Below the pieces are notes generated by a model, which did no database searches, was not told the origin of the DNA, and saw only the letters and a program-made list of their open reading frames with translations. Both the position numbers and the translations under genes were made by a program. Of a DNA stretch of 64,000 nt, positions 2,283 to 21,043 are shown piece by piece. The number at the start of each line of letters is the position of its first letter. The stretch's first letter is position 1. This DNA comes from Porphyra umbilicalis. Lineage: Eukaryota > Rhodophyta > Bangiophyceae > Bangiales > Bangiaceae. The stretch spans positions 89,186-153,185 of the forward strand of contig KV918917.1 in NCBI GenBank assembly GCA_002049455.2, read 5' to 3'.

Positions 2283-2480
2283 CACCGGGCCGCGGCCGAC
2301 GGGTGATCTCAGATCGGACGCCGCGCCCTCCACGCCGCGCCCAGATAGGGGTTCCGCACGTATCCGGTGCGGGACGGGTTCACCCGGCCGCGGCCGACGG
2401 GTGATCTCAGATCGAACGCCGCACCCTCCACGCCGTGCCTAGATCGGGGTACCGCATGTATCCGGTGTGAGACGGGGCGA
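2283..2480. repeat. 99-bp direct duplication
   Basis: Two imperfect copies, the first from about 2283 and the second from about 2382, each containing CGCGGCCGACGGGTGATCTC and a CCTCCACGCCG segment. The period is 99 bp. Confidence 0.85.
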
Positions 2481-2950: not shown

Positions 2951-3630
2951 GTGGCCGCCACGCCGGGTGGGCGGTCTTCACTGTGTTTTCTCACTCGTCA
3001 CCCCGCCGGTGGGTGCTTGTGGGACCGTTATCAATCGCCCATTAGGGCGAGTGGGACTGGGTGGTGCCGCGGGCTGTGTCCCTTTTCTGGGACCAACCGC
3101 TGGCTGTGCACGTCGCCGGCACGCGAGCCGGGCCGGCTTGACTGTTCGATTTTCGCTCGCCACCCCGCCGGTGGGTGCGTGCGTAACTGGTGCCGATTGC
3201 CCACGCGGGCGATCGCGCTGTTGTGGTACCGCGGACTGTGTCCCTCTATCTGGGGCCAACCGTTGGGATTTACGAGTGGCCGCCACGCCGGGTGGGCGGT
3301 CTTCACTGTGTTTTCTCACTCGTCACCCCGCCGGTGGGTGCTTGTGGGACCGTTATCAATCGCCCATTAGGGCGAGTGGGACTGGGTGGTGCCGCGGGCT
3401 GTGTCCCTTTTCTGGGACCAACCGCTGGCTGTGCACGTCGCCGGCACGCGAGCCGGGCCGGCTTGACTGTTCGATTTTCGCTCGCCACCCCGCCGGTGGG
3501 TGCGTGCGTAACTGGTGCCGATTGCCCACGCGGGCGATAGCGCTGTTGTGGTACCGCGGACTGTGTCCCTCTATCTGGGGCCAACCGCTGGGATTTACGA
3601 GTGGCCGCCACGCCGGGTGGGCGGTCTTCT
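2951..3630. repeat. 325-bp tandem repeat with nested half-units
   Basis: GTGGCCGCCACGCCGGGTGG recurs at 2951, 3276 and 3601, so the period is exactly 325 bp; two full copies are followed by a 30-bp third start. Copies 1 and 2 are nearly identical. Within each copy two diverged halves of about 160 bp both begin CACCCCGCCGGTGGGTGC, which makes this a higher-order repeat. A further diverged half-unit is visible at about 2900-2950. The array stops about 40 bp before the ATG of the next ORF, so it could form its leader or promoter region. Confidence 0.9.
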
Positions 3631-3671
3631 TTGAGAATTTCGGTTTGTCTCTGTCCTCGTGATAGCTGACT

Positions 3672-5828
3672 ATGGATGAGCACGATGCCCCAGAGCCCCT
3701 TGGGCCTATCTCGGGCGAATTGAGTCGCAACAAGCGTCGTCAAGTGGCGCGCGCCCGGAAACGGGCGGAGGCCATGATTGCTGAAGCTGCTCGGGTGGCT
3801 GAGCAAGCCGCCCGGGCTGTCAATGCGGCGCGTGCGGTCGAACGAGGTGCGGTTGCGGTGGCGCGACGGGCCGAGAACACTGCGGCACCGGCCCCATTGG
3901 CTCCCCTCGGCACCGGTCGCGAAATTGCGCCCGTGGCAGGTCGTGGCCGTGTTCGAGGCCGCGGCGGCGGTCGCGAGAGAGGCCGCGGCAGGGGCGACGC
4001 GGGCCCCAATCGGCTCGGCGGGCGCTCACACGCGGTTCGACGCGGGGATGGTGGCGGATCGCGGCTCGAATCGGCTGCTGACAGTGCCTCAGCCGCTGTC
4101 GGGGGACATCAGCCCTCACCAGGCCTGAGCGGCAGCGGTCGGGTGGGCGCGTGCGGCGCGACGCCCACGCCACGCAATCGCCAGCCGGCTGTCCGGCCCA
4201 CCCGGTCGTATGGGCCGGCACCTGGTGGCGACCGGGCCCAGTCTGCATCGGAAGTGATCGCCATCATCAACGATGGGCGGCGAGTTTTGACTGGTCGAGT
4301 GGGCGGGCTTACAGCCTCGCAGCTGCGGATGCTTCTCTCGGCCTTGGAACTCGCGGGACCTGACTATCTTCCGAGCCTCGAACGGATGCAGATCCTGAGC
4401 CAGTGCCGTGGGGGCTGTGGCGACGTGGAGGCCATTGATTCGCTAATGGCTTCAGCTGTAAGAATATTGCAGAACGACGGCGGTGGTCCGCCGAGTCCTG
4501 CCGACACTACGGCCACAAGCTTCCTTGTGAGGCAGGCTCTGGCGTCTCACGCATGCAAGGGCCAGTGCTTTGGGGGGGTGAAGCGCTCCCTCCCTCTTGC
4601 TTCCCGCCCAGCCCCTTCGCCTGCCCCATCTGCCGCCCTGCCTCCTGCTCCGATCCTCAACGCTGGAGCCTTGCCTCGTGCACCCCCCGCCAATGCACCG
4701 GCTGCGTCGAGCACGCGCCGGCGGCCGCCCGGGCGGCCACTCCCGCCTCCTGCGAAGCGCCTCCGCCGCACGACCAGCCACGATGGGGACCCGCAGTCGG
4801 TCGCAACTGTAACAACTTTTGCGCCGCCAACGCCGCGTGGTGCGCCGTCTTTGCCAATGGCGTCTGGAGCAAGCGATGGCCTGAACGCTCTGCCGGGAGC
4901 AGTGGAACCTGTCGTGCCGCTGTTTTTCTTTCGGGCGCGCGCCGAAAGGCGGCTCCAGCTGTCAACAGCGGATATCGGGTCGCTGGCAGAGGGCGAGAAC
5001 ATGTCCAAGCGCATGATGGATGGCATGCTGCTGTGGCTTTTATACTGGGCTGACAGCGGTGGAGTGCACGGTGGCCTCCGCGTTCTCTCCGCGCTCGACG
5101 CAGAGGACGTGAAGGACGCCGTGACTGATGACTGCCTGATCGTCAATAGGGCGGCCAAAGTGTTACTTGACCGCCTTGTGTTCGGGGGGGGCACGGTCAT
5201 CATGCCAGTGTACAGCGGTCGGGGATGGTCGGGCTTGGTCGTGCGCCAACTCCATTTGGTCGTTTCCGCCGTCGTGCAGACCGTGATCGGTCGTGATGCA
5301 GCTCCCGTTCATGGCGCCGCAGTTGTGCTGATCAACACCTGCGAGACCAGGGGCGGCGCGCGAGTCGACTTTGACATTGTAGACGGCCTCTTCCGGTCAT
5401 TGAGTGCTGCGATTTGTCAAACCCACCTACGTACCAGGGACTCACTCGGAATGCGGATGCGTGTCAACGGGTGCCTGCGGATGCGTTTGCCAGTGCGCCG
5501 TGTGGCGATTCCCGGAGGAGAGGTTGCTGACACGGCGGACCACCTCCTGGCACACGTGTCTTTGCTGCATTCGGCCAAACCACAAGCAGCAGCAGACCTG
5601 CTACGTCGTGACAATGGGCCACAATGGCAAAAGGTCCATGCCCCTCGGCGCTTGCGTGGCCTTGTTCGACGCATCGTGGACGCCCACCGACCCGGTCGAG
5701 AGATTTTTCTTGAGCAGGAGCCCGGCGAGGAGCTGTTGAACGGCTACGATCTCTCGGAGGATGTTGAACTGGTGATGTTCAGCTCCCCAGGCCAGTCACA
5801 CCGGTCATGTGGCGTAGTTGGTTCTTGA
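3672..5828 (+). CDS. hypothetical protein, 718 codons, 3' end replaced by an LTR
   Basis: The family is not recognised. Residues 1-100 are basic and alanine-rich with a helical look, followed by an RG/GRGR-rich segment (about 95-115) that could bind nucleic acid, a Pro/Ala-rich linker (about 305-370), and a more globular C-terminal half (about 420-690) with hydrophobic strands. The last 22 codons lie inside the 77-bp LTR starting at 5762, so the native C terminus has been lost and replaced. The C-terminal half faintly recalls a cysteine-protease-like fold, but no catalytic His-Asp-Cys set is visible, so I do not assign one. It may be an accessory gene of an older mobile element. Confidence 0.5.
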   Translation: MDEHDAPEPLGPISGELSRNKRRQVARARKRAEAMIAEAARVAEQAARAVNAARAVERGAVAVARRAENTAAPAPLAPLGTGREIAPVAGRGRVRGRGGGRERGRGRGDAGPNRLGGRSHAVRRGDGGGSRLESAADSASAAVGGHQPSPGLSGSGRVGACGATPTPRNRQPAVRPTRSYGPAPGGDRAQSASEVIAIINDGRRVLTGRVGGLTASQLRMLLSALELAGPDYLPSLERMQILSQCRGGCGDVEAIDSLMASAVRILQNDGGGPPSPADTTATSFLVRQALASHACKGQCFGGVKRSLPLASRPAPSPAPSAALPPAPILNAGALPRAPPANAPAASSTRRRPPGRPLPPPAKRLRRTTSHDGDPQSVATVTTFAPPTPRGAPSLPMASGASDGLNALPGAVEPVVPLFFFRARAERRLQLSTADIGSLAEGENMSKRMMDGMLLWLLYWADSGGVHGGLRVLSALDAEDVKDAVTDDCLIVNRAAKVLLDRLVFGGGTVIMPVYSGRGWSGLVVRQLHLVVSAVVQTVIGRDAAPVHGAAVVLINTCETRGGARVDFDIVDGLFRSLSAAICQTHLRTRDSLGMRMRVNGCLRMRLPVRRVAIPGGEVADTADHLLAHVSLLHSAKPQAAADLLRRDNGPQWQKVHAPRRLRGLVRRIVDAHRPGREIFLEQEPGEELLNGYDLSEDVELVMFSSPGQSHRSCGVVGS

Positions 5829-5838
5829 CCTCTCAACA
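5762..5838 (+). repeat. 77-bp LTR, first copy
   Basis: It begins TGTTGA and ends TCAACA, a perfect 6-bp terminal inverted repeat of the TG...CA type. It differs from the copy at 5994-6070 at one base. The primer-binding site follows immediately. The LTR is far shorter than usual copia LTRs. Confidence 0.85.
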
Positions 5839-5853
5839 GGTTATGGGCCCAGC
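5839..5853 (+). promoter_or_regulatory. primer-binding site, initiator tRNA-Met anticodon arm
   Basis: GGTTATGGGCCCAGC directly abuts the LTR and is the complement of the anticodon stem-loop of eukaryotic initiator tRNA-Met, including the CAT anticodon. Drosophila copia and yeast Ty5 prime reverse transcription from a cleaved half of this tRNA rather than from its 3' CCA end. Confidence 0.8.
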
Positions 5854-5993
5854 TCGCGCTGGATTTAGTTCTGAGAGGTCGCGGGTTCGAGATTCGCCAC
5901 GGCTGCGCCCCAGGAGGGGGACGGAGGTATTTGCAGGAGAGGCAATTCCGAGTCGTGGGTCAGACGAGCCTGGCCCTGAGGAGCTGGGGGGAG

Positions 5994-6070
5994 TGTTGAA
6001 CTGGTGATGTTCAGCTCCCCAGGCCAGTCACACCGGTCATGTGGCGTAGTTGGTTTTTGACCTCTCAACA
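5994..6070 (+). repeat. 77-bp LTR, second copy, 5' LTR of copia element
   Basis: TGTTGA...TCAACA, 76 of 77 bases identical to the first LTR. It is preceded by a purine tract and followed at 6071-6084 by the same primer-binding site, so it acts as 3' LTR of the miniature and 5' LTR of the coding element. Confidence 0.85.
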
Positions 6071-6226
6071 GGTTATGGGCCCAGTGACGCTGGTGGTGAT
6101 CGTCGTCTTCCGCTCTATCGTTTGCGGGACGGCGCTCGTTGGGCTGCTGTGTGTTCCGGCGTCGGGCGGGCGTGCTTAGCCTCCCACGTCGTCAGTGTCG
6201 CGCCTCGGGGCGTGGTTGTCATCGTC

Positions 6227-9200
6227 ATGTCGGAGTACGGGCGCTATGGTGGCCCTCGCTTCGCGCAGCTGAACGACGACTACAAGGTCTGGGCTGTGTA
6301 CTGCCGTGCACAGCTCATCAAGGAGAAGGTCTGGTCGGCGGTCGTGACGGACCGCCCCGCGTCCGGGAGTGATTCCAAGGGCAACTTGGTGGCGGACGCG
6401 TGGGACATCATGAACGAGTCGGCGTTGGCGACCATCCAGATGTCGGTCAAGCCGGTTCATCTCCATTCGGTGACGGCGGTCAGTAAGGCCAAGGACGCGT
6501 GGGACGCGCTCAAGGACATCTTTGAGGCGCGTGACAACGCACGGCTGCTGCAGCTCATGCACGAGCTGAGCAACCTCAAGAAGGACGGCGACGAGAACAT
6601 CATCAAGTACACGTCGCGTGCCAAGGGCCTCCGCCAAGAACTCGCCATGCTGGGCAACCAGGTGGACGAGAACACACTCGTGCTGCAGATCCTGTCGGGT
6701 CTTCCAGCAGAGTACGACATGATCAAGACCGTCCTGGAGAACATGGACGGGAAGCGCAACCTCGCCGAAGTGAGCGCCAAGCTGCTCACGGTGGAACAGC
6801 GCGCCAGCCGAGGGCGGTCGTCGTCGTCGACTGGCGTCAAGTCGCAAGCGTTTGCGGCATCGGCTACCAAAAAGCCGTGGGACAAGAAGGCGGTCGTGTG
6901 CTACTACTGCGACAAGAAAGGGCATATGAAGCGCGACTGCCTCAAGAAGAAGGCCGACGACGCCAGGGGCAACAAGAAGCCAAACGGCGGGCGTCGGGAT
7001 GGTGGCGGGGGCGGTGGTGCACCTCCCCGTGCCGCATTGGCCTACGCCGCGTCGGCAGGCCAGGCCGGGGAGCACAAGACTCCCAAGAGCACCAGTGGGA
7101 TGTCGACCTGGGTGCTGGACTCCGGCGCGACCAACCATATGGCCGCCGGGGACAAGGGCTTCACCGTCAAGACGTCGGGGAGCGGGGCCAAGGTCACTCT
7201 GGCTGACGGTCACAAGGTGTCCATTAAGGGGCACGGATACGTCTCCATGGACGTGGGGGCGGGCAACACCAAGGTACGAATGGTCCTCGGTGAGGCCATG
7301 CTCGTGCCAGACCTCACGGACAACCTGTTGTCTGTGCGTGCGGTCGACCGCCGCGGCGGAGCGGTGGTGTTTGTCGGAGACGCCTGCTACATCCTCAGCG
7401 ATGGAGAGGCGGTACTCTCAAGCGGGGTGTTGAGCAACGCGTCTGTCATCGGTTCGGTCAACGAGTCCGAGAACTACGTGCTCAAGGTGACGCCGGTCAA
7501 GGCGTCGGCAAGCGCCGCCTCAACACGCATGGATGGCGAGGCGGAGCTGTGGCACCGCAGGTTCAACCACTTGGGCTTCGAGAACCTCAAGCGAGTGGTC
7601 GGGATGGTCGACGGGATTCCAGCTTCGGTGGCGGACGCCAAGCGCATCCTTGGCACGGTGTGTGTCCCGTGTGTTGACGGCAAGATGGCCCGTTTCCCGC
7701 ATCATCGCTCCACTACAACGAGCACGAAGTGCGAGTTGGTTCACACCGACGTCGATGGGCCCTTGACGGAGTCGTTGGGCGGTTCAGTATACTTCATGAC
7801 GCTGATGGAGGACTCTACTGGCTTCATCACGGCGACGCCCATCAAGACGAAGGGGATGGTACCGGACGTCATCAAGGCCCGCATTACGCAGCTTGAGACC
7901 CTCACCGGGCTCAAAGTCAAGCGGGTGCGCCACGATGGCGCAAAGGAGTACGTCAGCCACGACCTCAAGGCGTGGTATGACAACAAGGGCATCACGTCGG
8001 AGAAGACGGCGCCATACTCATCGCAGCAGAACGGCAAGGCGGAGCGTGCCAACCGCTACATCATGGAGCGCGTTCGAGCGGCACTGCTGGACGCCGGTGC
8101 GGAAGAGGAGCTGTGGGCTGAGGCGCTCTCCTCGGTCATCCACGTGCTCAACCGGTCCCCCAAGGCAGGGCAAGATGTGACGCCCCTTGAGGCGCTCACG
8201 GGGCGACGCCCCGACGTGAAGGGATTTCGCGTCTGGGGGAGCCGGGCATGGGCTCTCAAGCCCAAGCAGCAGCAGCGCAAGCTGGAACCAAGGACCGATG
8301 TTGGCCGTTTTGTTGGCTACACCGTTGGTGGAAAGGCCTACCGCATCCTCGAGGATGATTCAAACAAGATCTTCGAGCGCCGAGACGTGCTCATGGAGGA
8401 GATCCCAAGCAAGACAATGAACAACACGTCTGTTTCTGGTTCAAGCGCCAGTCCTCGCCTGACGGCGTGGACGGACGGTGACAAGGAGGACGGTGCGATG
8501 AACATGCTGGACGCGGAAGTCCCCAGCGGGGACGAGTATGCTCCGCAGCAGTCTTCAGAGAGCGACGACGCGCCGGACAAGGAGGCAGTCCATGACGCGG
8601 AAGACGGCGATGATGATGACGACAACGAGGACGCGGCGGCTCAAGAAGGGCACCAAGTGCTGCCTGACTCCACAACGGAGAGCGATGACGACGGGGCGCA
8701 AGCACCCCGGCGGTCCAAGCGCAAGCCGGCACCAAAGGTTACCTGGTGGGAAAGCAACCCGAAGGCGTACGTGGCGGCGGGGCCATTTGGTGACGCTAAG
8801 TCTGCCTGGGACCTGAGCAAGCCGCCGACCAACGCGAAGGAGGCGCGTGCACGCTCGGACTGGCCGCTATGGAAGGCGGCAGAGAAGGAAGATTACCTGG
8901 CGCACAAGAAGCTTGGTACCTGGTCCAAGTCCAAGAACAACAACAAGCGCAAGGCCGTCAAGACTCAGTACGTGTACGACATCAAGCGCGATTCGGAAGG
9001 CAACGTGACGAGGTACAAGGCGCGCCTGGTCGCGCAAGGCTTCAACCAAGTGCCGGGGCGTGATTTTGACGAGACGTGGGCGCCAGTGCCCAGCTCGGCA
9101 ACAACACGCGCACTCTTCGCGGTGGCCGCGGCCAAGGACTGGGAGGTTCACCACGTGGACGTCAAGACGGCCTTCCTCAACGCCAAGATGGACAAGGAGA

Positions 9201-10398
9201 TGTACATCAACCTTCCGGACGGCACCGAGCCGGGGGGGCACATGATGTCTTCCGTCTCAACCTAGCTCTGTATGGGACAAAGCAGGCCGGGCGCCTGTGG
9301 GGCATCAAGCTCGACAAAGAGCTCAAGGCTATGGGGGCAGTCCGGTCCAAGGTGGACCCGTGCCTCTACACATGGAGCCACCCGGTGCACGGGCTGGTTT
9401 ACATCCTCGTCTACGTGGACGATCTCATCGTTGCGGGCAAGAGCCTCGACGGGGTTCAAGCGGTAAAGAACTCGGTGTCTGCGACGTTCGACGTGCGCGA
9501 CATGGGGGAGGTCAGGGACTTCATCGGCATGAAGGTAATGCGAGACCGGACGGCCAAGACGCTCACCCTGAGCAACCCGGGGCATGTTATCGCACTCCTT
9601 GAGGCGTTTGGAATGTCCAACTCCACGCCCAACAAGACGCCAATGGTGTCGGGGGCCAAGCTGGCCAAGACGGGGGAGAACCTCTTGCCCGACGGCAACC
9701 GATATGCCGAACTTGTCGGCTCCCTGCTCTATCTCTCTACAACGACGAGGCCGGACATTTCCTTTGCAGTGGGCGTGCTGTCGCGCTACATGGCCTGCCC
9801 CGAGGAGGACCACATGCGCGCGGCCAAGGGGGTGCTTCGGTACCTTCGCGGGGCCTCGCGCCTCGGGGTCGCGTACGGCACCTACAAGCCTCTCCAAGGG
9901 TACGTCGACGCGGACTGGGCGGGCGACATTGACGCTCGTCGGTCGACGACGGGTTTTATCTTCACCCTCAACGGCGGGCCGGTCTCGTGGGCGAGCAAGC
10001 GCCAGTCGACGGTGGCAACATCGACGGCTGAGGCCGAGTACGTGGCCGCCGCGATGGCGACCAAGGAGGCCCTTTGGCTACGAAAGATTTTATCGGCGCT
10101 TGGCGTCGACGGCGGTGCCGTTCCCATGGGGGAAGACAACCAGGCGTGTCTGGCGCTCGTCAACAACCCCGAGGCAACGGGACGCACCAAGCACGTGGAC
10201 GTCGCGTACCACATGGTGCGCGATTACGTGGCGCGCGGCGACGTGACCTTTTACTTCCTGCCGAGCGCTGAGATGCCCGCGGACGGGCTCACCAAGGCGC
10301 TGCCGGGGCCGGCGTTCAAGGCCTTCCGTGACGCAGCGGGTGTCGGGCCCGACTTGGGCGCGGCGGCGGGCGCGCTTGAGCCCGACCCGGCGTGCTAA
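6227..10398 (+). CDS. copia gag-pol polyprotein, one frameshift
   Basis: Gag (from the Met at 6227) ends in a CCHC knuckle, CYYCDKKGHMKRDC. The protease shows LDSGATNHM. Integrase has its HHCC zinc motif (WHRRFNHLG ... VCVPCVDGK) and the acidic triad in HTDVDGP, RHDGAKEY and NGKAERANRY. Reverse transcriptase has TAFLNAKMD and the YVDD box, and RNase H has DADWAGD, TAEAEYVA and the terminal ALTKALPGP-type region. At a run of seven G (9232-9238) the frame shifts by -1: upstream reading stops at 9265, while the downstream frame continues to a TAA at 10398. One extra G would restore a single polyprotein of about 1390 residues. The more 5' Met at 6050 overlaps the LTR and is unlikely to be used. 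Confidence 0.9.
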
Positions 10399-10526
10399 CG
10401 CACGTCGTCACACTGCCCGGCTTTGGGGCGCTAAAGGGCTTTAGCGCATCCTGCTGGGCGGGCCCGGGCGCCGATTTCAAGAATTCGGGCCCGGATGTCG
10501 CGGCCTGCAAGATCGTTCCGGGACCG

Positions 10527-10632
10527 ACACGTGGCGCTGCTGCAACACGTGGCGCTGTTGCAACACGTGGTACCGTTGCAACACGTGGTACCGTTGCAAC
10601 ACGTGGTATCGGTGCAACACGTGGCGATGGGG
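10527..10632. repeat. 18-bp minisatellite, six copies
   Basis: ACACGTGG recurs at 10527, 10545, 10563, 10581, 10599 and 10617, each followed by a variable CGCTGTTGCA or TACCGTTGCA segment. Each unit contains a CACGTG E-box-like palindrome. Confidence 0.9.
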
Positions 10633-10751
10633 CTAAAGTGCTTTAGGCCCCCTTCCGGTGGTGCCCGACGGGCCGGATGTGGTCGTACGGGCACCCGGAC
10701 GGGTCGGGCGTGGTCAGGGCACCTGCCCGGTCCTTCCTGGGCCCTTTCCGA

Positions 10752-10939
10752 GGTCGGTTGAAAAACCGAGATTTGGAAGGGGTCTAAAGGGCTTTAGCCC
10801 CGCCGTGAGAACGGTCATTGTGGGGGTGGTGCCCGATGGACCGGATGGGGTCCTACGGGTACCAGGGAGGCCCGGAGGTGCCTCTGGCATCCTCGCGGGT
10901 CTGCTTTGGCCCCATCGGGGGTCGGTTGAAAAACCGACC
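10752..10939 (+). repeat. paired GGTCGGTT-GAAA-AACCGACC hairpins
   Basis: A stem with 8-bp arms closed by GAAA lies at 10920-10939, and a near copy with one mispaired end lies at about 10752-10771. In RNA the loop would be a GNRA-type tetraloop. Each sits about 10-30 bp before one of the CTAAAG hairpins, so the pair forms a repeated two-hairpin module. Confidence 0.65.
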
Positions 10940-11085
10940 TCTGGACATGGGGCTAAAGGGCTTTAGACCCCTCTGCAAGAAAGGGGTCTAAAGGGCTTTA
11001 GACCCCTCGGTCAGATCGTCCCCGGAGAGCCTTGCATGGACTTTCGATGACGGGAATTTGACCGGATGGGAAGAATTATCCCTGG

Positions 11086-11183
11086 GGTACTGGGGGGAGT
11101 GCGAAGTGTACTTCCGCAGTCCCCCAGGGACAATTGGCCCTTGTGTAAGTCGTAAGTCTTTGTATTTGTGTGGTGACACTGCA
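11086..11183 (+). repeat. purine tract and candidate 3' LTR
   Basis: GTACTGGGGGGAG at 11087-11099 closely matches the purine tract before the LTR at 5994 (CTGGGGGGAG in both). It is followed by TGCGAAGTGT and, 84 bp on, by ACACTGCA, an imperfect inverted terminus of TG...CA type. Early positions share GAA, TTC and CCCCAGG with the 77-bp LTR, but overall similarity is low. Confidence 0.45.
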
Positions 11184-11247
11184 TGTACTTGATTGTAGAT
11201 CTTTCAGCGGGGAACCCATTAGGGGTTGAGCTCCGGGGGAGATTTGT

Positions 11248-14200
11248 GTGGGGAGCGGCGCCTACAGTTTGAGGCTGTGGGCGCCCTCCGGAGGTGCGGG
11301 AGCTGCCCTGGGAGGTGCCGTGCGGGCCTTGTCGGCCGCGCCATTGGGGGTGCCTGGGAAGGCCCTGCGGCTGAGGCGGCCTGGGGGATATCAGGCACGC
11401 CTTCGCAGGCCTGGGAACGCAGTGCCTAGTAAAATAACGCACCCACTCAACATCATCGACTTCACAGAGGACGAGGCCGCCGACGGCGAAGAGGCGCTTA
11501 AAGACTTGACGGATGACGAAGACGGTTCCGGTGACAACAGTGCGCATTACAGCAGTCGCAAGGGCGACAGCAGTGGAGGAATAAGACGCAGTCAAGATGG
11601 TGACAGTGTCGGGGATGGCGGTGGTGGGATCGACAATCGCAACGGACGAGGCCCAGCTGACGGCGTCGAAAACGGGTGTCGGACTGATGCGCATCTCGTG
11701 CTCGGAGGTTCCCCTCAGGGGCGTTCGAGAAACGTCCCTCGTGGGGGCATCGACGACGCACGGGCGTCTGGTGGCGGTACTGCTGCTATACACGCTCTTG
11801 GAGGCGCTGTGGTTAGTGTGCACGATCACGATCGACGCAACAATGGTGGATACAGGCGCCACAGGGAAGTGGAGGCACCGCTGGGTGGTGCAGGCGTTGA
11901 TGCCCGCGTTCGTTCTGGCGCTGCCGGTGGTGTGGTTGCTCAAGATGGACGCGACAATGGCGGCGGTAATGCAGGTGAGGCACGGGGACTCGTCGGTGCA
12001 GGCGTTGATGCACGCGCTCGTGCTGGTGCTCCCGTTGGTGTGGCTGCTCGAGATGGGCGCGACAATGGTGGTGGTTGTGCAGCGGCGGTACGCGGACTTG
12101 GAGGTGCACGCATTGATGCACGCGCTAGGGGTCGTGGTGCCGATGTTGTGTTTGCTCAAGATGGACGCGACGATGGTGGCGATGGTGCAGCGGCGGTACG
12201 CGGGCTTGGAGATGCACGCGTTGATGCACGTGCAGGTGCTGGTGGTGCTGATGATGTGGTTGCTCAAGATGGACCCGACGATGGTGGTGGTGGTGAAGTG
12301 GCGGTACGCGGACTTGGTGATGCACACATTGGTGCACGCGGTCGTGGTCGTGCTGCCAATGATGTGGTTGCTCAAGATGGACGCGACGATGGTGGCGATG
12401 GTGCAGCGGCGGTTCGTGGACTTGGTCGTGCACACGATGATGCACACGCTCGTGCTGGTGCTCCCGTTGGTGTGGTTGCTCAAGATGGACCCGACGATGG
12501 TGGTGGTGGTGGAGTGGCGGTACGCGGACTTGGTGATGCACACATTGGTGCACGCGCTCGTGGTCGTGGTGCCGATGATGTGGTTGCTCAAGATGGACGC
12601 GACGATGGTGGCGATGGTGCAGCGGCAGTACGCGGAATTGGTGGTGCAAGCGTTGATGCGCACGCTCGTGCTCGTGGGGCTGATGATGTGGTTGCTCATG
12701 ATGAACGCGGCGATGGTCGCGATGGTGCAGAAGCGGTACACATACTTGGTGGTGCAGCCATTCATGCACGTGCTCGTGCTGGTGCTCCCGTTGGTGTGGT
12801 TGCTCAAGATGGACGCGACGATGGTGGCGATGGTGCAGCGGCGGTTCGTGGACTTGGTCGTGCACGCGATGATGCACACGCTCGTGCTGGTGCTCCCGTT
12901 GGTGTGGTTGCTCAAGATGGACCCGACGATGGTGGTGGTGGTGAAGTGGCGGTACGCGGACTTGGTGATGCACACATTGGTGCACGCGGTCGTGGTCGTG
13001 CTGCCAATGATGTGGTTGCTCAAGATGGACGCGACGATGGTGGCGATGGTGCAGCGGCGGTTCGTGGACTTGGTCGTGCACGCGATGATGCGCACGCTCG
13101 TGCTGGTGCTCCCGTTGGTGTGGTTGCTCAAGATGGACCCGACGATGGTGGTGGTGGTGGAGTGGCGGTACGCGGACTTGGTGATGCACACATTGGTGCA
13201 CGCGGTCGTGGTCGTGCTGCCAATGATGTGGTTGCTCAAGATGGACGCAACGATGGTGGTGGTGCTGCAGTGGAGGTACAGAGACCTGGTGGTGCAGCCG
13301 TTCATGCACGTGCTCGTGCTGGTGCTCCAGTTGGTGTGGTTGCTCAAGATGGTCGTGGCAATCGTGGAGGTAATGCAGTGGAGGCACGGAGACGTGGTTG
13401 TGCAAGCGTTGATGCACGTGCTCGTGCTAGTGCTCGCGATGGTGTGGTTGCCCAAGGTGTACACGACAAGAATGGCGGTTGCGCAGTGGAGGTACCCGGA
13501 CTTGATCATGCAGCCATTGATGCACGCGCTCGTGGTGGTGCTGCGGTTGGTGTTGTCGCTCAAGAGGGACCCGAACATGGTGCCGGTGATGGAGTGGAGG
13601 CACGGGGACTCATTGGTGCAGCCGTTGACGCCCGCGCTCGTGGTGGTGCTCTCGTTGGTGTTGTTGCACAAGACGGACGCGACAATGGTGGCGGTGGTGA
13701 AGTGCAATCACAAGGACGCGCTCGTGCTGCCGATCACGCACGCGCTCGTGGTGGTGCTGCCGTTTGTATGGTGACTCGAGATCGACACGACACTCGTGGT
13801 GAAGGACATGGCCAAGACAGCGGAGGCGGCGACGGTGGTCGGGTGCTTGAGCAAGACGGGCGTCGTCCCGCCGCCGCCGACGGCGGTGGTGATTTTCATG
13901 CACGAGGACTCACTGGCGATGCCGCCGATGCACAGGTTCTCGATGTCGCTGCCGTTTGTATGTTACCTCATGTTCGACGCGACGATGGTGGTGCACGGCG
14001 TAACCCCGTTGAAGGGCCTAGCACAGGAGTTTGTGGCATTGCCGAAGGACCATGTTGTGGTGCCGCCGCGGGAGTCGGTCTTTTTGTCGGTGATCCTTCT
14101 TTGCTGTGCGAGGCTCTCGCCTCACGGCGCGATGATCAGTTGTCTAGCTTTGATGCAGATGACATAAACGTCTTGGCCGGCACTCTCCCCTCAAACCACT

Positions 14201-16200
14201 TGGCCAGAGGAATTGAAGGAGTCCCTAGTGCAACGCTCGCACCGATACAGAGCATACAGAAGCCTGGGGCTGCCGGAAAAGACCCTACATCGCCAAAGAA
14301 ACTCCACGAGCACATGCCGGGTACCACCCGAGAAGGTCCTGACGCCACTGTTCGCAGGAAAGTTGACATGGATGCGGGCGGGGAGCCCAAGGACGCACAC
14401 GGTGGTGACAAAGTGTGTGCGCAAGTCCTTGGGTCTCCGACGCGACGTGCGAAGGATTTCTACTCCGTTCCTGTGACTGAGTTTCACTCTGTTCCTGAGT
14501 TGGGATTGCACGGACTGATTCGGTCGAATAGTGCATCATTCAGGCAATTTGGCGCGCACGTGTTCCGAATAGTAGCACGCGAGAGGCGCCCCGTCTCTAG
14601 TCGACTGCCAAAGCGACATTCCGGGGACAAGCTCAGAGTGCGCGTTCAAACCTTTCCGCAGTTCCCTACCATTATGTGCGACTCATTCTCTGGTAGGCCT
14701 GCGCCTGACCTGAGCGTCAAGCGCAAAGACTTGAGGGCACAGCTGCCATCAGAAAGGGAAAAGCGAATGTCAGGTGCGGAACTCAGAGCCAAAGTCGGTG
14801 AGAGTGCAAACGCCCTTCAAGCCGCATACCAGGACTTCGGTGTGACGCGCTTCCTTGCCAGTGTGAACGATCTCAGCGCGACTTGGGTGCGACGAGTCAC
14901 AGCTGCCGGCAAAGAGAGGGCCGTGATGGGTGGAGCCCTTGATCCCGTAGATGTGTACTATCTTTCAGACATGTCACCTGACAACAAGGATGGGTGCAGT
15001 AGGAGTCTCGGCGACCCTGCGTGTACTGCCCATGCCGAGTCTTGCCCGCCTCGTCAGCGATTTGAGAACCCTCGCACATTGAATCACCACACTATGCTCG
15101 GTGCAGCGTCCACATACGAAGGTATCAACACGAACTTGCTGTACGTTGGGTCTCAAGGCTCTCACTTTAGCTGGCACGTTGAGGACAGTCTGTTGCAATC
15201 ATGTTCGTACTTGCAGGCCGGAGCGAGCAAGTTTTGGTGGTTCATTCCGGCGTCGGAACGCCCTCTCGCCGAGCGCGTGATGCGAGAGCTTATGGACCCG
15301 GTTGTATTGGAAGCGGCCGGAGGTGACGTATGGACAGTTCTTGCTGTAAAGGCGTGCTTGTGGCCTGCAACGCTCTTTCTGGCTCGTGGTGTACGAGTTG
15401 GATTCCACAAGATGGAGCCTGGGGACTTCGTTGTCACGGGTTACGGCGTCCTTCACAGCGGCTTCAATGGGGGACCAAACGTGGCCTCCGCCGTGAACAC
15501 TGCCTGCACAGCCTGGTTTTCTTACGCGATGGAACACGCAGAGCACTGGCGCAATAAGCTGACTATCCACATCCCTTTTGAAAAGCTGCTGGTGCTTGCG
15601 GCCCAGAAGCTCGCTGCTGGGGAATGGTGGTGCGGCGACGCGAAGACGTATCAGGCGTTAGATCCAGAACAGTTCCAACGGGATATCAAAGTCATGGTGT
15701 CTTACCTAGGAAAGTACCTTGACGATACGCAGGCTTTTTTGGAGATGGGACCAGACACAGACTGGGCTGGCAGGAAGGCCACCATCGTCGACATGATGCG
15801 GGCGTCCATGGGCGTGACGAAGTTTATCGTGCACAACTACATACAGCCGAAAGGGACACCCTTGGTGCTGCACAATGAGGATACGGGATCAGTCACAGAC
15901 TATTCAGTTGATGGCACGTCTTGCCCTCATTGCGGTGTAGTCGTTTGGCTCTCGGTCATTGTCTGCCCAACGTGCATTGAACAGCTAGGAGAAGAAGCTG
16001 GACCTACTGCTCCTCTGTGCTGTCTGCGCTGCGCACCGACCATGTTCGGGAGCGAGCACGATCGACTTCGCCAGGGCTCTCCGGCGCAGAGGCGTCTCAT
16101 GGGTTGCCATGCTCCGGTGGTGGTGCAGCGGCTCTCGAACAGCTCCGTGTACCTCTTGGTGGATGAATTGAAGAAGCTGTCAGTGGGACGTTCTGCATGA
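11248..16200 (+). CDS. JmjC-domain dioxygenase (KDM4/5-like) with 36-residue repeats
   Basis: A 1650-codon ORF. The JmjC fold spans roughly residues 1285-1420: it opens YEGINTNLLYVGSQGSHFSW, binds Fe(II) through His1310, Glu1312 (HVE) and His1403 (VLHSGFNGG), and has the 2-oxoglutarate lysine Lys1328 in GASKFWWFIP, so catalysis looks possible. A C5HC2-like zinc finger follows from about residue 1559 (CPHCG ... CPTC ... CCLRC), as in KDM5 proteins. The family demethylates histone lysines in the nucleus. Residues about 75-110 are acidic. Residues about 210-840 are about 17 copies of a 36-residue Gly/Asp/Arg/Ala repeat. The first 60 residues may be upstream non-coding sequence read through; coding looks firm from ITHPLNIIDF (about residue 70). 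The transposase gene faces it 254 bp downstream. Confidence 0.85.
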   Translation: MGSGAYSLRLWAPSGGAGAALGGAVRALSAAPLGVPGKALRLRRPGGYQARLRRPGNAVPSKITHPLNIIDFTEDEAADGEEALKDLTDDEDGSGDNSAHYSSRKGDSSGGIRRSQDGDSVGDGGGGIDNRNGRGPADGVENGCRTDAHLVLGGSPQGRSRNVPRGGIDDARASGGGTAAIHALGGAVVSVHDHDRRNNGGYRRHREVEAPLGGAGVDARVRSGAAGGVVAQDGRDNGGGNAGEARGLVGAGVDARARAGAPVGVAARDGRDNGGGCAAAVRGLGGARIDARARGRGADVVFAQDGRDDGGDGAAAVRGLGDARVDARAGAGGADDVVAQDGPDDGGGGEVAVRGLGDAHIGARGRGRAANDVVAQDGRDDGGDGAAAVRGLGRAHDDAHARAGAPVGVVAQDGPDDGGGGGVAVRGLGDAHIGARARGRGADDVVAQDGRDDGGDGAAAVRGIGGASVDAHARARGADDVVAHDERGDGRDGAEAVHILGGAAIHARARAGAPVGVVAQDGRDDGGDGAAAVRGLGRARDDAHARAGAPVGVVAQDGPDDGGGGEVAVRGLGDAHIGARGRGRAANDVVAQDGRDDGGDGAAAVRGLGRARDDAHARAGAPVGVVAQDGPDDGGGGGVAVRGLGDAHIGARGRGRAANDVVAQDGRNDGGGAAVEVQRPGGAAVHARARAGAPVGVVAQDGRGNRGGNAVEARRRGCASVDARARASARDGVVAQGVHDKNGGCAVEVPGLDHAAIDARARGGAAVGVVAQEGPEHGAGDGVEARGLIGAAVDARARGGALVGVVAQDGRDNGGGGEVQSQGRARAADHARARGGAAVCMVTRDRHDTRGEGHGQDSGGGDGGRVLEQDGRRPAAADGGGDFHARGLTGDAADAQVLDVAAVCMLPHVRRDDGGARRNPVEGPSTGVCGIAEGPCCGAAAGVGLFVGDPSLLCEALASRRDDQLSSFDADDINVLAGTLPSNHLARGIEGVPSATLAPIQSIQKPGAAGKDPTSPKKLHEHMPGTTREGPDATVRRKVDMDAGGEPKDAHGGDKVCAQVLGSPTRRAKDFYSVPVTEFHSVPELGLHGLIRSNSASFRQFGAHVFRIVARERRPVSSRLPKRHSGDKLRVRVQTFPQFPTIMCDSFSGRPAPDLSVKRKDLRAQLPSEREKRMSGAELRAKVGESANALQAAYQDFGVTRFLASVNDLSATWVRRVTAAGKERAVMGGALDPVDVYYLSDMSPDNKDGCSRSLGDPACTAHAESCPPRQRFENPRTLNHHTMLGAASTYEGINTNLLYVGSQGSHFSWHVEDSLLQSCSYLQAGASKFWWFIPASERPLAERVMRELMDPVVLEAAGGDVWTVLAVKACLWPATLFLARGVRVGFHKMEPGDFVVTGYGVLHSGFNGGPNVASAVNTACTAWFSYAMEHAEHWRNKLTIHIPFEKLLVLAAQKLAAGEWWCGDAKTYQALDPEQFQRDIKVMVSYLGKYLDDTQAFLEMGPDTDWAGRKATIVDMMRASMGVTKFIVHNYIQPKGTPLVLHNEDTGSVTDYSVDGTSCPHCGVVVWLSVIVCPTCIEQLGEEAGPTAPLCCLRCAPTMFGSEHDRLRQGSPAQRRLMGCHAPVVVQRLSNSSVYLLVDELKKLSVGRSA
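11880..13770 (+). repeat. 108-bp tandem repeat inside the JmjC gene
   Basis: CTCAAGATGGAC recurs at 108-bp spacing (caag at 11941, 12157, 12265 and onward), about 17 copies with substitutions but hardly any length change. Because 108 is a multiple of three, several frames on both strands stay open for 400-900 codons. The frame joined to the JmjC domain is taken as real. Confidence 0.9.
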
Positions 16201-16454
16201 GCGATGTCATTTGTGTTTTTTCTATGCTTCTTGCTTTTGGCTTCTCCATGCGCACTATGTATGTTTCTTCGTACTGCCTCACGTTGCTGGCTGTCACACA
16301 TAGGCTGTTGTAATATTCATCAACTTCTTCTCATTTGCTCTTGAGTCCATCGTAGGTCCCTTGCTCGTTGTTTTTGGTGCAGTACAGTATTCAAACCATG
16401 AGCCGAGTCCGACGTACACGTCAGAGAGGAATAAAATACACAAGTCACTCTCAG
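16201..16454. other. convergent 3' region between JmjC and transposase genes
   Basis: It is markedly more AT-rich than its neighbours, with T-rich stretches. A possible AATAAA poly(A) signal for the plus-strand gene lies at about 16430. No ORF is supported. Confidence 0.5.
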
Positions 16455-19400
16455 TCACCCGCTCTTAAAGTGGAAGCCCGAACGTTTGGTAAACATGACA
16501 TTACGCTGCCCACAAGGAAGCACAAATGCCAATTGGCCGACGCGGTCGGCAGTGACAATGGTAACATCAGCTGCTACGTCAACAGCGACGACAGCCGGCT
16601 CGCCCAAGACGGAGAAGGCCATGTGCGGTACACGCCATGGCTCGTAGGCAACGTACAGCTCGCCGTTGACGGTTGCAATGGAGTGGACGCGACCAAAGCG
16701 CTTGTGGTTCATGTCACTCGTTCCAGAGCCATGCTCTTCAGGTACAATGTCAACAATGGACACTGTGGACCCTTCTGCGATAATAATCGATCGCTCTTTC
16801 CTCGCGGCCTTCCGCCAAAGTGTGAGGGCCGCGTTGGGCGCATGGCGCTTCCAAACATCTTCTTTGGGCCCCAAGAGCGTGCGCACAGCGTGCATGGCAC
16901 GCCAAGCATCATTGACTGTGGCCGCATTACCTCTGCTCGGACCCAGGCTGTAGAAAGAGACGGCCTTCAGCTTCTTGCCTCGTCTACCAATGAGCCATGA
17001 AGCGGGTATTCCATATTCGCCTGGCAAAGATAGCACTCGGGAGTACTGTTCTGTGTCTCTCCACCTCTGTATGGCATACTCAGCGGGGTTCCAGCTGTTG
17101 CTCTGGCTCACCTCACGCTTTGCCAGCTGGTGAAACCTCTCAAAAATGAGCTCACATATGGCCGGCCCGAGCTGCACCAGCGGGAGAGTGCGATACAAGA
17201 GCTCTAGTAAACGGTGCACAGATGGTCGCTGCCACGACCCGTTGAATGGCACCAGCCGACGCAGTTCAATCATCAGACTCTCGCCCAAGACTTGGAGCTC
17301 AGCGACAGTGGGCCTCGTTCGCACGGCCTCCTCGCCATCCGAGGCAGCTGTTGGGAGGTAGAAAAGTGCGGTAGAGAACCGTCGGAGGGCATGAAGAGCA
17401 CTGAGTGCGGCAACTGCGTGTGGCGATGTGGCTGTAGGATGGACCAGGAACTGCAGCACTGTCGGGCCCACCGTGAGCAGCACTGCATAGTCTGACATTG
17501 AGAGGGTTGTGCCACCCATCTTTTCGGGTTCGAACGACGACAAGACTGTGTGTGTCGGGACATACTTCGCACAGCGACGCATCTGCTTTGTGAATGAGTC
17601 CCGTTGCTCTACTGATAAGGCATCGTAGGCTTCCATTAAAAGGTTTGACCCGATGTTGTAGTAGAGTAGGTGTGAGGGAGCGACAACCACATGCTCGTGT
17701 ATGTCGAAACTCCCGGGACCCCGTGCCTCTTCAAGACGCATGACCAGGCTGCCGGACTTATCGGATATGCCATTAAGAAGCAGTGCATCCTTCACGGATT
17801 CCGCAGACAGCTGTGGGGAGCTCTTCACGGCCGACATGATAAGCGCAGTCCGCTCTTGCGTTCGAGAGTAGCGAGAGTCCTTAACGTCAAAAGAGGTCGT
17901 GCTGCTCATGGCTCGCTCTTTCCGGGCTGTCGTGGTCTTCAATTGGACAATGTCGCAGCTAGTGCAGTGCTCTATGCCTGGGGCACCGACCGAGTTGGAA
18001 AACTTTGCAGCCATAGGGAAATCAAAGAGACCAAGACACAGGTACACACGAACTAACACGTTCTGCTGTATGAAGGCATCATACACGTGAACACCTTCCT
18101 TACTCGCGAGGAGTACGTCTTTTACCACGCGCTTGAGAAGTGCGTCCGGGTTGGCTCCTGGTGGCAAATAAAACAGTGGACGAACAGAAAACGCACGATC
18201 CTTGATGCTGAGAGATGTGTATGCTCCATAGTAGCCCTCCAGGCTTCCCCGTCGACGCTTGTATACGTTGAATTCATCACCGTACAATGAAACGTATAGC
18301 GTGTAGGGGTCTTTTTCCGGGAGAGCACACTCCGGGGGCTCTGCCGCCTGCGAGAGCTCCAGTGGCCGCAGTGACGTTAAGGCGGACCACGAGTCTTGTT
18401 CCATCATGGCTGATGCTTTTACGACAAGAACCAGTACGCCACCGGACCGCGTGAACCGCAAAGTAAACCTGCGTTCTTCGGTGAAGCATGGTGCCCAGCT
18501 CGCGGGCGGTACGAAATCAGGAAAAGCAGAAAACTGCGCGAGGGAGTCCCAAAGTCGAAGTGCGCTCTGGGGAGCATACGTGGACGCGGATTTGGTAAAG
18601 CTGCCGTCACAAGCAATGGCTGTGCTCATCAGACTGGCCTTGAACGTCGTAGCTGCATCAAGAGAGACCTGGGCGATACATCCAATGTCGTACCTGTACC
18701 GGTCTCGGAACAGGACGTTCTTCACGTTATACCTCGCGGGATCCCTGGCCACTACAGTCTGATAAAACTCTGTAGGCCGCTCAGCTGTGCCCATGCACGA
18801 TTCCCCTTTACTGTGGAAAAGAGCAGCCGTCTTGGGATCTCCAAAGTCCCGCTTTACGTGCTCAGAGAAAGGAATGTACGACACGATTGCGTCAGGCAGT
18901 TTTCGCAAGGCTCTTCCTTTGCCAACGGGAAGCTGACGTGTGGTTGTTTCTCTTCGCAGTGGTATGGCAGACTTCAGCATGTGCTTGCGCAACTGCCGTA
19001 AGCGCCACCTCGAGGGCCACTCCTCCTGCGGGATAAAGGAGTTCTCGGCCTCTCGCATCATGTCATACTGTCTGAGCGTCACGCGCACTCGCCCACAGAG
19101 GTACCCAAAACATAAGAACTCGCGACGTGTTGCAAACCCCTCATCAGGGTGCTCAGATGCACTCGAAAATTCTGTGTCGTCTGATGGGTAAGCGTCTGAC
19201 TCAGAATCTGATGACAGGGCGACGTCGTCGTACTCCTCTATATGGGACACTCGTGGTATCGCTCTGCCAGGGACAGGTTGGGGTCTGCCTGCCCAGCCCC
19301 CACCGTCGCCTTCACGGCCGACATCATGCTCTGCAGAATCCGAGTTCGTGGGATGTGCTTGCAAATGAATCAGGTTGGCATCAGTGAGATTGAAAAACGC

Positions 19401-19481
19401 AGAACCTCGTGGACCGCGCCTGCGACGCTTCATGGCGACCAGGAAAGGGGGCCCGTGCGTGCGTAGCACAGTATCCGACAC
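16455..19481 (-). CDS. CACTA/KDZ-type DDE transposase, 1008 residues
   Basis: A long uninterrupted ORF with the layout of the Transposase_21/KDZ group. An acidic, Ser-rich N terminus (about 40-115) is followed by a RNase-H-like core beginning LYVSLYGDEFNVYKRR, where Asp402 is the likely first acidic residue. A Cys/His insertion (EHCTSCD) comes next. The third acidic residue is probably Glu781 in FERFHQLAKRE. The middle Asp is less certain; MEAYDALS is a candidate. The protein would cut and join transposon ends in the nucleus. There are no stops or frameshifts, unlike other transposases in this window, so this copy may be young. It converges on the JmjC gene. Met1 or the Met at residue 17 (MKRRRRGPRG, basic and NLS-like) could start translation. 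Confidence 0.75.
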   Translation of the reverse strand: MSDTVLRTHGPPFLVAMKRRRRGPRGSAFFNLTDANLIHLQAHPTNSDSAEHDVGREGDGGGWAGRPQPVPGRAIPRVSHIEEYDDVALSSDSESDAYPSDDTEFSSASEHPDEGFATRREFLCFGYLCGRVRVTLRQYDMMREAENSFIPQEEWPSRWRLRQLRKHMLKSAIPLRRETTTRQLPVGKGRALRKLPDAIVSYIPFSEHVKRDFGDPKTAALFHSKGESCMGTAERPTEFYQTVVARDPARYNVKNVLFRDRYRYDIGCIAQVSLDAATTFKASLMSTAIACDGSFTKSASTYAPQSALRLWDSLAQFSAFPDFVPPASWAPCFTEERRFTLRFTRSGGVLVLVVKASAMMEQDSWSALTSLRPLELSQAAEPPECALPEKDPYTLYVSLYGDEFNVYKRRRGSLEGYYGAYTSLSIKDRAFSVRPLFYLPPGANPDALLKRVVKDVLLASKEGVHVYDAFIQQNVLVRVYLCLGLFDFPMAAKFSNSVGAPGIEHCTSCDIVQLKTTTARKERAMSSTTSFDVKDSRYSRTQERTALIMSAVKSSPQLSAESVKDALLLNGISDKSGSLVMRLEEARGPGSFDIHEHVVVAPSHLLYYNIGSNLLMEAYDALSVEQRDSFTKQMRRCAKYVPTHTVLSSFEPEKMGGTTLSMSDYAVLLTVGPTVLQFLVHPTATSPHAVAALSALHALRRFSTALFYLPTAASDGEEAVRTRPTVAELQVLGESLMIELRRLVPFNGSWQRPSVHRLLELLYRTLPLVQLGPAICELIFERFHQLAKREVSQSNSWNPAEYAIQRWRDTEQYSRVLSLPGEYGIPASWLIGRRGKKLKAVSFYSLGPSRGNAATVNDAWRAMHAVRTLLGPKEDVWKRHAPNAALTLWRKAARKERSIIIAEGSTVSIVDIVPEEHGSGTSDMNHKRFGRVHSIATVNGELYVAYEPWRVPHMAFSVLGEPAVVAVDVAADVTIVTADRVGQLAFVLPCGQRNVMFTKRSGFHFKSG

Positions 19482-20404
19482 TGCACGTTAACACCACATA
19501 CGCACGCCCGTAGGAGCACCAAGAGGGACACAGCCGAGGACCTGTTTGACGGGGATACACAGCGAGATCACGGGCCCAAGGCACAGGACGCCGGCACGAT
19601 GCGACTGCGGTGTGGCACCTCAAGCATCGACGGAGGCTCACTTCGGTGTACCTATGGCGAGGGAGGCTCTGATCTGCTGATCGGCACGAGTTGGAGCTGC
19701 TCGGCAGATTCCCGGCTCGGACACTCTGCACCGATCCCCCTTTCTGACAATAGGAAAGGTACGAAGGACACGTCCTTCAAGGTGGACCACCGGCGGACGG
19801 CTTCCGTGCGCTCATTGGCCAGCCATTTCTAGCCCCCCCAGCGACCAAGGCGCCGATTGATTTTCCATTTGATCCGGCAGACCATCTGCGGAACAGTCCT
19901 CCAGTGATCCTCGTTTGATCTCAAGGATGATCCTCAGTAAAGTCCGAACGCCACCGTCGGGACTGTTTCCAGGACGGTCTTGCGTCATAGATCTCGCCCT
20001 ATCCTATTCTACGTTTGAGATTAGGCCAGGACGGTCCACCGGAAAACCCTGGGGAGTTCCTCCACTTGATCTGATGATCACTGGGGGACGATCCCAATTT
20101 CGCGTCACGCCGACCTCCAGAATCGATGTAGCTGCGTGAGCAAATCGGGCCGCAGGCCTATACTGTGAATTCCTCGATTTTGTGGCTAGGATTAAATAAG
20201 GACGAGCATCCGTCTCCCTGTGATCTGTCAACATCGAAAGCCGGACGAGGAGACATCCAAACAACATCCAAAACCCGTTCCGATGTCGATTGGTGTAGCC
20301 GTGACGATGTACGCCGCCTCGCCGTGGTGCGCCGTGAGAATGCATTGCTGGAACGGGGGTTACAAAGTGCGCAAGGGTGCTATCGAAGGGGATACTGTAG
20401 TGCC
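19482..20404. other. non-coding upstream of the transposase gene
   Basis: No convincing ORF. The sequence is richer in short GATC-containing words (GATCC, TGATC) around 19860-20100, which may be sub-terminal transposon sequence, but I found no matching partner on the left side. Confidence 0.4.
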
Positions 20405-20660
20405 TGTACTGTACAGTACGTCCCCGTCTTGTTCGACACGAGACGACGGGCCGCGGGTGGGCGACGAAACCACCTGTCCAAATCGGTGATGCGTGGACCA
20501 ATAAGATCCACCCGTTAAGGTTGCCGTGACGTCCAGGCAACCTTGACGGGTGGCGTGCGTCATCATTAATAGCCTTGACGGCGGCGTCATGATGACGCCG
20601 CCGTCAAGGCTATTTACGATTACGTACCCGTCTTGTTCGAGACGAGACGATGGGCCGCGG
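20405..20660. repeat. palindrome cluster
   Basis: A perfect 14-bp palindrome GTACTGTACAGTAC (20405-20418); an 18-bp arm pair with one mismatch around a 10-bp loop (20508-20525 / 20536-20553); and a perfect 23-bp arm pair with a single-base spacer (20568-20590 / 20592-20614). A direct repeat of about 39 bp starting CCCGTCTTGTTCGA begins at 20422 and 20627. The compactness resembles a foldback or MITE element. Confidence 0.8.
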
Positions 20661-21043
20661 GAGGGACAACGCTCCGGGCATGCGCGCTCGTTGCTGTGGT
20701 GGGCGGGGGAGGGCGGCAACGTTTGGGGCAAGCGCGCTTGGTCATGTGGGCATGGCGGTCTCTGTCGTTGGCAGCGTGTCCTGTGTCACGTCCATGGATG
20801 GTATGAACCAACCTTGTGTGGCGCCGGGCCGGCCAGGGCGATGCTGTTGGGGGGGCGCTGTGTCTTACAAGTACGGCTGCGCGGGCGGCGGCCCGTCTGC
20901 TGATGTGCCCACCGGCGCCACCACCGATCCGTCCCCCTCTTCCCCGCACCATCCGCGTGCCAGTGCGACGGGTGCCCCCGCCACCGACACACACGTCGGC
21001 CTCACCGCCCCCCCTCCCCCTTTTTCCCCCTGCCGCCACCGCC

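Follow-up and report, generated by a model that had tools for sequence, protein, structure and literature searches.

Hosts silence transposons through chromatin marks, and to our knowledge the countermeasures that transposons are known to encode act against DNA methylation. Fungal DNA transposons, including EnSpm families that end in CAC..GTG and have 3-bp target site duplications (TSDs), have been described as carriers of TET/JBP dioxygenases (Kojima 2025, PMC12730594). Here we describe a transposon of the red alga Porphyra umbilicalis that carries a gene for a JmjC protein, a predicted dioxygenase of the histone demethylase type, next to its transposase gene. It lies in a 64,000-nucleotide stretch of assembly GCA_002049455.2 (contig KV918917.1, positions 89,186 to 153,185 of the forward strand), hereafter the window, to which all coordinates refer. 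Two open reading frames (ORFs) converge there with 254 bp between them, one of 1650 codons at 11248-16200 (+ strand) and one of 1008 codons at 16455-19481 (- strand), exactly as in a preliminary description of the locus; the first includes the JmjC domain and the second is a CACTA-type transposase.

Ends, copies and class of the transposon

The genome searched comprises 665 contigs (83.8 Mb), in which individual loci are given C numbers below. Phycobilisome linkers, with 12 matches on a 185-kb contig and seven further contigs, mark it as that of a red alga. A 1-kb DNA query spanning both gene ends gave 46 matches (40 candidates scored), among them 18 near-full copies, the window's own included, that are 93-100% identical over 1 kb across the junction, and two partial copies of 583 and 648 bases; the remainder are shorter or diverged. 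The element's right end, ...CTCCCTGTG, falls at 20222 (terminus at 20202-20222, - strand, CACAGGGAGACGGATGCTCGT reading inward) and is shared by the window and nine further copies whose flanks differ, one of the ten reading CTCCATGTG. Tracing leftward gave a common left end, CACTGTGTGGCGG, in four copies, with lengths of 14,287, 15,047, 15,462 and 15,425 bp. All four show the short target duplication expected of CACTA/EnSpm elements, here of 2 bp (CC, TT, CA and GA), and in all four the CACTG...CTGTG ends bracket both the JmjC gene and the transposase. Common ends, inverted repeats and target duplications enclosing both genes bear out the preliminary proposal of an element-borne JmjC gene, and ends that exclude this gene, which that description had named as an outcome fatal to it, occur in none of the four.

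The terminal inverted-end consensus of CACTA/EnSpm elements is CACTR, from which the right end here, CACAG, deviates at the fourth base; the left CACTGTGTGGCGG and right CACAGGGAGACGG termini are alike at 9/13 bases and have the form CAC..GTG. Ends of this form are described together with TSDs of 3 bp for EnSpm and of 2 to 5 bp for the wider group, while 8-bp TSDs are given for Zisupton (PMC12730594). Because of the common ends and the 2-bp TSDs in 4/4 copies, we assign the element to the CACTA/EnSpm superfamily as a DNA transposon of 14-15.5 kb. The KDZ (Kyakuja-Dileera-Zisupton) label of the preliminary description is ruled out, since the TSDs are of 2 bp and not 8 bp and both the ends and the transposase signature are those of CACTA/EnSpm.

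The transposase (16455-19481, - strand, 1008 codons) matches Pfam Transposase_21 (tnp2) with E=2.3e-5 and 24.1 bits, under the cut-off of 28.6; all five transposases that were aligned match this family, the best at 2.7e-8, and several copies pass the cut-off. The motifs FDFP, taken as the region of the putative second D, and C(2)C (CTSC) are found in 5/5 of the aligned proteins and H(3)H (HVPTH/HVPKH) in 4/5, the window copy having Y in place of the first H. C(2)C and H(3-4)H mark the EnSpm-Mirage-Chapaev-Transib group (PMC12730594). The last acidic residue (E) of the DDE set was not located in the aligned transposases, and a PDB search with the window transposase returned nothing at E<=10.

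Allowing no more than two mismatches, the right-end pattern occurs 36 times in the genome against no occurrence of a reversed control. At least 28 of these right ends have a JmjC match, and at least 21 a transposase match, within 15 kb, both figures being lower bounds drawn from the matches listed. Two diverged copies, C16 and C391, have the left end CACTGCGTGGTGG in common, with differing flanks, and are 99.9% identical over 3.78 kb, of which 3.66 kb lies past the transposase frame and reaches the end of the C391 contig. A scan of C16 to 7.7 kb past the frame for a CAC(A/T)G end followed by the last two bases of the left flank found no right end. The right arm beyond the transposase is thus more than 3.6 kb long in C16/C391, against 741 bp in the window copy.

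Recurrence of the gene pair

A protein search with the transposase listed 48 matches (45 of 311 candidates scored), at 45 places once pieces no more than 3 kb apart are merged. A JmjC match converges within 4 kb on 46 of the 48 (43 of the 45 places), and in 40 of these 46 pairs the match ends are 222-538 bp apart, so that the genome-wide check for convergent JmjC genes suggested in the preliminary description came out in its favour. Among the 74 matches listed from a JmjC protein search (73 of 164 candidates scored), 43 have a transposase partner among the matches listed; the JmjC gene is multicopy, so that on copy number the other outcome named as fatal, a single-copy gene at a conserved site in related species, does not hold.

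Pfam profiles gave 136 Transposase_21 matches (150 of 176 candidates scored) and 105 JmjC matches. The former divide by their start in the profile into 69 of the window's type (position 66 or later) and 67 of another type (position 35 or earlier), a post hoc division drawn from the match list that is not a phylogeny. A convergent JmjC stands within 8 kb of 60 of the 69 window-type transposases, and no JmjC in any orientation within that distance of the 67 others; within 20 kb the figures are 61/69 and 4/67, one of the four being convergent. Forty-five of the 105 JmjC matches have no Pfam transposase partner within 8 kb. For some of them (C1, C46, C48, C49, C178) a transposase was found by the protein search, three (C263, C30, C344) are presumed host genes, and four (C173, C212, C31, C99) form a second group whose JmjC domains are 41-44% identical to that of the window. 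The surroundings of C212, the one member of this group for which they were read, reveal a far relative of the pair, with a JmjC domain 44% identical and a convergent transposase 41% identical over its last third (E=2.8e-87).

Since common ends and 2-bp TSDs bracket both genes and the pairing recurs genome-wide, it is virtually certain that the JmjC gene belongs to the transposon as an integral part and moves together with the transposase.

Co-inheritance and selection

Both genes are under purifying selection between lineages. The ratio of non-synonymous to synonymous substitution rates (dN/dS) of the JmjC gene, compared among six lineages, is 0.13-0.20 in 14 of 15 pairs, at dS of 0.4-2.2 (values above ~1.5 are close to saturation and rough); the youngest pair stands at 0.55. 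The transposase gives 0.08-0.17 in 10/10 pairs of five lineages (broken frame of C24 omitted), and the N-terminal domain of the JmjC protein 0.13-0.46 in 14 of 15 pairs, one not being computable. Synonymous divergence is similar for the JmjC gene and the transposase (0.40 and 0.34, respectively, between C16 and C294; 0.67 and 0.57 between C8 and C15), and the two genes have long been inherited together, across deep divergence.

Constraint is weaker among young copies than between lineages. When each is compared with the window copy, at 14-55 changes per comparison, the corresponding ratio of polymorphic changes (pN/pS) is 0.98-1.96 for the transposase (five of the nine other copies fetched, three with a stop; C90, C175, C1 and C25 omitted) and 0.42-0.67 for the JmjC gene (six of the nine, one with a stop; C90, C175 and C25 omitted for broken frames), the latter from copies matching the whole stretch; these values rest on few changes. 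Thirteen JmjC domains were compared in a tree, in which the six from the element, those of the second group and those of the three presumed host genes stand apart with bootstrap values of 97-100; the exact position of the presumed host genes is unsure given long branches. Selection on the JmjC gene and its co-inheritance with the transposase make it very likely that it has a function for the element.

The JmjC gene and its product

The JmjC gene of the window copy is interrupted by a Copia-type retroelement at 5762-11466, because this lies between its 5' part (3672-5761, + strand; 696 codons from an ATG, open up to the insert and 62% identical in amino acids to the N-terminus of the C16 protein) and its 3' part (11467-16200, + strand), the frames on either side being compatible by length. 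The 1650-codon frame, read as the JmjC gene in the preliminary description, is so from 11467 onward; its codons 1-73 (11248-11466) are the end of the insert, since homology to other copies picks up at 11467 in all seven loci matching there and GAGGA flanks an insert of 5705 bp. Stop-free JmjC frames of about 2,000-2,570 amino acids (aa) occur in ten copies, and that of C16 encodes 2556 aa and converges on a 986-aa transposase frame ~195 bp away.

The JmjC domain (15139-15498, + strand, ORF residues 1298-1417; Pfam PF02373, E=4.3e-14, 53.4 bits against a cut-off of 24) has the Fe(II)-binding H-x-E...H and 2-oxoglutarate-binding K of JmjC demethylases. All four residues named in the preliminary description are present, H1310, K1328 and H1403 (alignment H260, K278 and H353) being invariant in 6/6 lineages and E1312 (E262) kept in five; in C24, where the transposase frame is broken as well, this E is replaced by K. 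Pfam identifies the dioxygenase as JmjC and returned no TET/JBP match. Among solved structures, the best relatives of the C16 domain are Arabidopsis JMJ13 (3e-19), KDM4D (4.6e-18) and KDM5A (3e-17), with KDM5B/C also near, and the 58 distinct relatives at E<=0.1 are mostly named histone lysine demethylases or Jumonji/JARID proteins, with no small-JmjC hydroxylase among them. By sequence the domain is therefore nearest the JMJ13/KDM4/KDM5 demethylases, with the cofactor residues kept.

A Cys/His-rich C-terminal finger follows (15922-16110, + strand), in which nine Cys/His residues are invariant in 6/6 lineages, and the stretch upstream of the JmjC domain has a likeness to JmjN by eye alone. Further upstream, 108-bp (36-aa) tandem repeats (11886-13791, + strand, 17.6 units) run through the gene. 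Because this array leaves at least three frames open, counting both strands (ORFs of 1650, 725 and 898 aa), ORF length by itself is no evidence of a gene there. The 5' part encodes a conserved, non-repetitive N-terminal domain (4914-5693, + strand), 32-77% identical to the first row in an alignment of six lineages. A Ulp1-type (C48) protease domain occurs in some CACTA proteins. A degenerate form of it here is unsupported, in that Pfam at E<=10 gave two families, neither a protease (best E 0.038) and each matched by one member of the six; the only PDB matches are two at E 1.4 and 1.5. Directly upstream of the gene lie tandem repeats of 162/325 bp (2903-3629), with a related 164-bp array at the same place in the diverged C16.

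Proposed role and alternatives

The long joint inheritance and retention of the two genes suggests that the enzyme serves the element in evading silencing by its host. On balance we think it probable that the locus is a CACTA transposon with a JmjC gene whose product counters silencing, and we would put slightly better than even chances on the protein acting in this as a histone demethylase. The anti-silencing role is our best inference, drawn by analogy with the TET/JBP transposons and with VANC of the Arabidopsis VANDAL elements. The JmjC protein would home in on DNA of the element itself, with its N-terminal domain and the tandem repeats that precede its gene perhaps providing the specificity, and would remove a repressive histone methyl mark, likely on H3K27 or H3K9, whereupon the transposase gene could be expressed and the ends of the element reached. 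H3K27me3, a Polycomb-type mark, lies on roughly half of the repetitive elements of another red alga, C. merolae (PMC5405695), making it a plausible target mark. A more specific version, in which an ancient red-algal CACTA lineage has a dedicated anti-silencing demethylase whose N-terminal domain recognises the ~162-bp repeats and whose JmjC domain strips a repressive mark from the element's own copies only, is tentative, and we give it rather less than an even chance.

Several observations weigh against this explanation, in whole or in part. Sequence does not tell the substrate of demethylation. In KDM5 enzymes this is H3K4me3, an activating mark, and relatives of this kind would predict the opposite effect. 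The JmjC protein has no Pfam JmjN or C5HC2 match (the latter at E<=1), so the finger, called C5HC2-like in the preliminary description, holds as a conserved feature and lacks that family match. The N-terminal domain has no significant relative in Pfam or PDB, and AlphaFold models built from the window sequence alone had mean predicted local distance difference test (pLDDT) scores of 41 for this domain and 39 for the JmjC domain and were not used; DNA targeting is accordingly a guess. Nor is the pairing complete: 2 of the 48 transposase matches listed (C503, C95) lack a convergent JmjC, 31 of the 74 JmjC matches have no transposase partner among the matches listed, and 9 of the 69 window-type transposases have no convergent Pfam JmjC within 8 kb. 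Eight of the 36 right-end matches are without a JmjC within 15 kb among the matches listed, one (C95) having the transposase only and seven (C28, C109, C246, C386, C145, C310, C5) neither gene. Such cases may be copies that have decayed or suffered deletions, and the seven right ends with neither gene possibly deletion derivatives or solo ends; there may also be a working form of the element that lacks the JmjC gene.

Some JmjC enzymes are protein hydroxylases, and an element-borne JmjC protein might instead hydroxylate or demethylate a non-histone protein, such as the transposase or a factor of the host's repair or silencing machinery. Co-inheritance with the transposase would suit a direct partner of this kind; the solved relatives, with their preponderance of histone lysine demethylases and Jumonji/JARID proteins and their want of small-JmjC hydroxylases, point the other way, and we consider such a target unlikely. 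About equally unlikely, in our view, is a KDM5-like H3K4 demethylase serving self-restraint, which would lower the transcription of the element itself or of genes close by and so limit harm to the host. KDM5A/B/C are among the nearest solved relatives and a finger follows the JmjC domain, as it does in JmjN-JmjC-C5HC2 proteins, yet JMJ13 and KDM4D score slightly above KDM5A, and self-restraint is harder to maintain by selection among copies, which is an argument and not data.

CACTA elements capture pieces of host genes, and the JmjC gene could have been captured once from the host and carried as a passenger without function. The low dN/dS in 14/15 lineage pairs at considerable dS, the long stop-free frames in ten copies and a pairing that holds down to about 41-44% identity at one far place (C212) make this very improbable. 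That the two genes are chance neighbours, either as two unrelated repeats or as a host JmjC gene beside a transposon, is suggested by a view of the single window only, and hardly deserves credence given 18 near-full junction copies, ends and TSDs outside both genes, and the 0/67 count for the other transposase type; passenger and chance adjacency alike are rejected on selection and association counts. An endogenised giant virus, for which Amoebidium offers the precedent of a parasite-borne expansion of KDM4-like JmjC genes (PMC11244446), is just as remote given the short inverted ends, 2-bp TSDs, CACTA transposase and 14-15.5 kb size. None of 57 pattern matches among IMG/VR contigs was confirmed as a relative, in a resource that may omit records very close to this genome, and no search was aimed at viral hallmark genes.

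The window copy and its surroundings

Positions 1-20222 of the window are one copy of the transposon with the Copia-type element inside it. Its left part (1-5761, + strand) aligns with element positions 753-6207 of copy C25 in two pieces at 97-98%, the alignment then resuming up to 20222, and from C25 the left terminus is placed ~750 bp before the window start. Tandem repeats of 96 bp lie near this end (1-266; 2.8 units in the window by Tandem Repeats Finder), and matches at 96-bp spacing are found in other copies too. The insert (5762-11466, + strand) is of Ty1/copia type and foreign to the transposon, with the 5-bp duplication GAGGA at 5757-5761 and 11467-11471; it has gag and reverse transcriptase domains over two overlapping frames and an integrase core under its cut-off. 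A clear pair of long terminal repeats was not found within it; a 91-bp direct repeat (5762-5852 and 5994-6084, 99%) is present.

Short repeats, both direct and inverted, lie at 20417-20665, just outside the right end of the transposon. Pfam Transposase_21 is matched a second time in the window at 31848-32150 (+ strand), within an open frame of 854 aa; this match is of the other type, for which none of 67 has a JmjC within 8 kb genome-wide. Two 48-nt inverted arms (49662-49709 and 51120-51167), 90% complementary, 1410 bp apart and beginning ACAAAG, may mark the termini of another small DNA element.

Comparison with known systems

With its terminal CACTG/CACAG, 2-bp TSDs and a Transposase_21-type transposase bearing FDFP, C(2)C and H(3)H, the element resembles CACTA/EnSpm transposons of the CMC group, from which it differs in the JmjC gene, the CACAG in place of CACTR at the right end and, in the window copy, the Y in H(3)H. 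We place it among the CACTA/EnSpm transposons as one whose accessory enzyme is of a new kind, TET/JBP-carrying transposons being already known. No published JmjC-carrying transposon was found in the open-licence PMC literature, Repbase reports and most subscription papers lying outside that scope. The JmjC domain shares the HxE..K..H set of KDM4, KDM5 and plant JMJ13, with E-values of 3e-19 to 3e-17 for its C16 relative; those are host genes, whereas here the product is an element protein of ~2000-2570 aa with an N-terminal domain and repeats of its own.

VANC, encoded by an element of the Mutator type, is not a JmjC enzyme. Like the JmjC protein it is element-encoded, and it undoes silencing, an activity shown for VANC and proposed here; its targets are often tandem repeats, to which the 162-164-bp repeats upstream of the JmjC gene are a parallel only (PMC5735166). 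VANC is reported to cause loss of DNA methylation and to bind a motif (PMC5735166). The endogenised giant viruses of Amoebidium are likewise genomic parasites that multiply a KDM4-like demethylase; they are described as viruses whose JmjC lacks companion domains, with no transposase named (PMC11244446), and the present case is a transposon. Counts of JmjC genes in such genomes, here 105 Pfam matches, may include many that are transposon-borne and not host genes.

The nearest parallel is provided by the fungal TET/JBP transposons, in which a chromatin-modification dioxygenase is also carried by DNA transposons, EnSpm included, and escape from silencing has been proposed (PMC12730594). TET/JBP acts on 5-methylcytosine in DNA, while the element here has JmjC, a different family for which histone lysine is the likely substrate; the term JmjC is absent from the main text of that survey (PMC12730594). 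A gene of the histone demethylase type that a transposon lineage keeps under selection would point to histone marks as a further front between transposon and host in red algae, and would offer a natural, possibly self-targeting chromatin-opening enzyme for study. If our explanation is true, the Porphyra element would be the histone-mark counterpart of the TET/JBP transposons and VANC.

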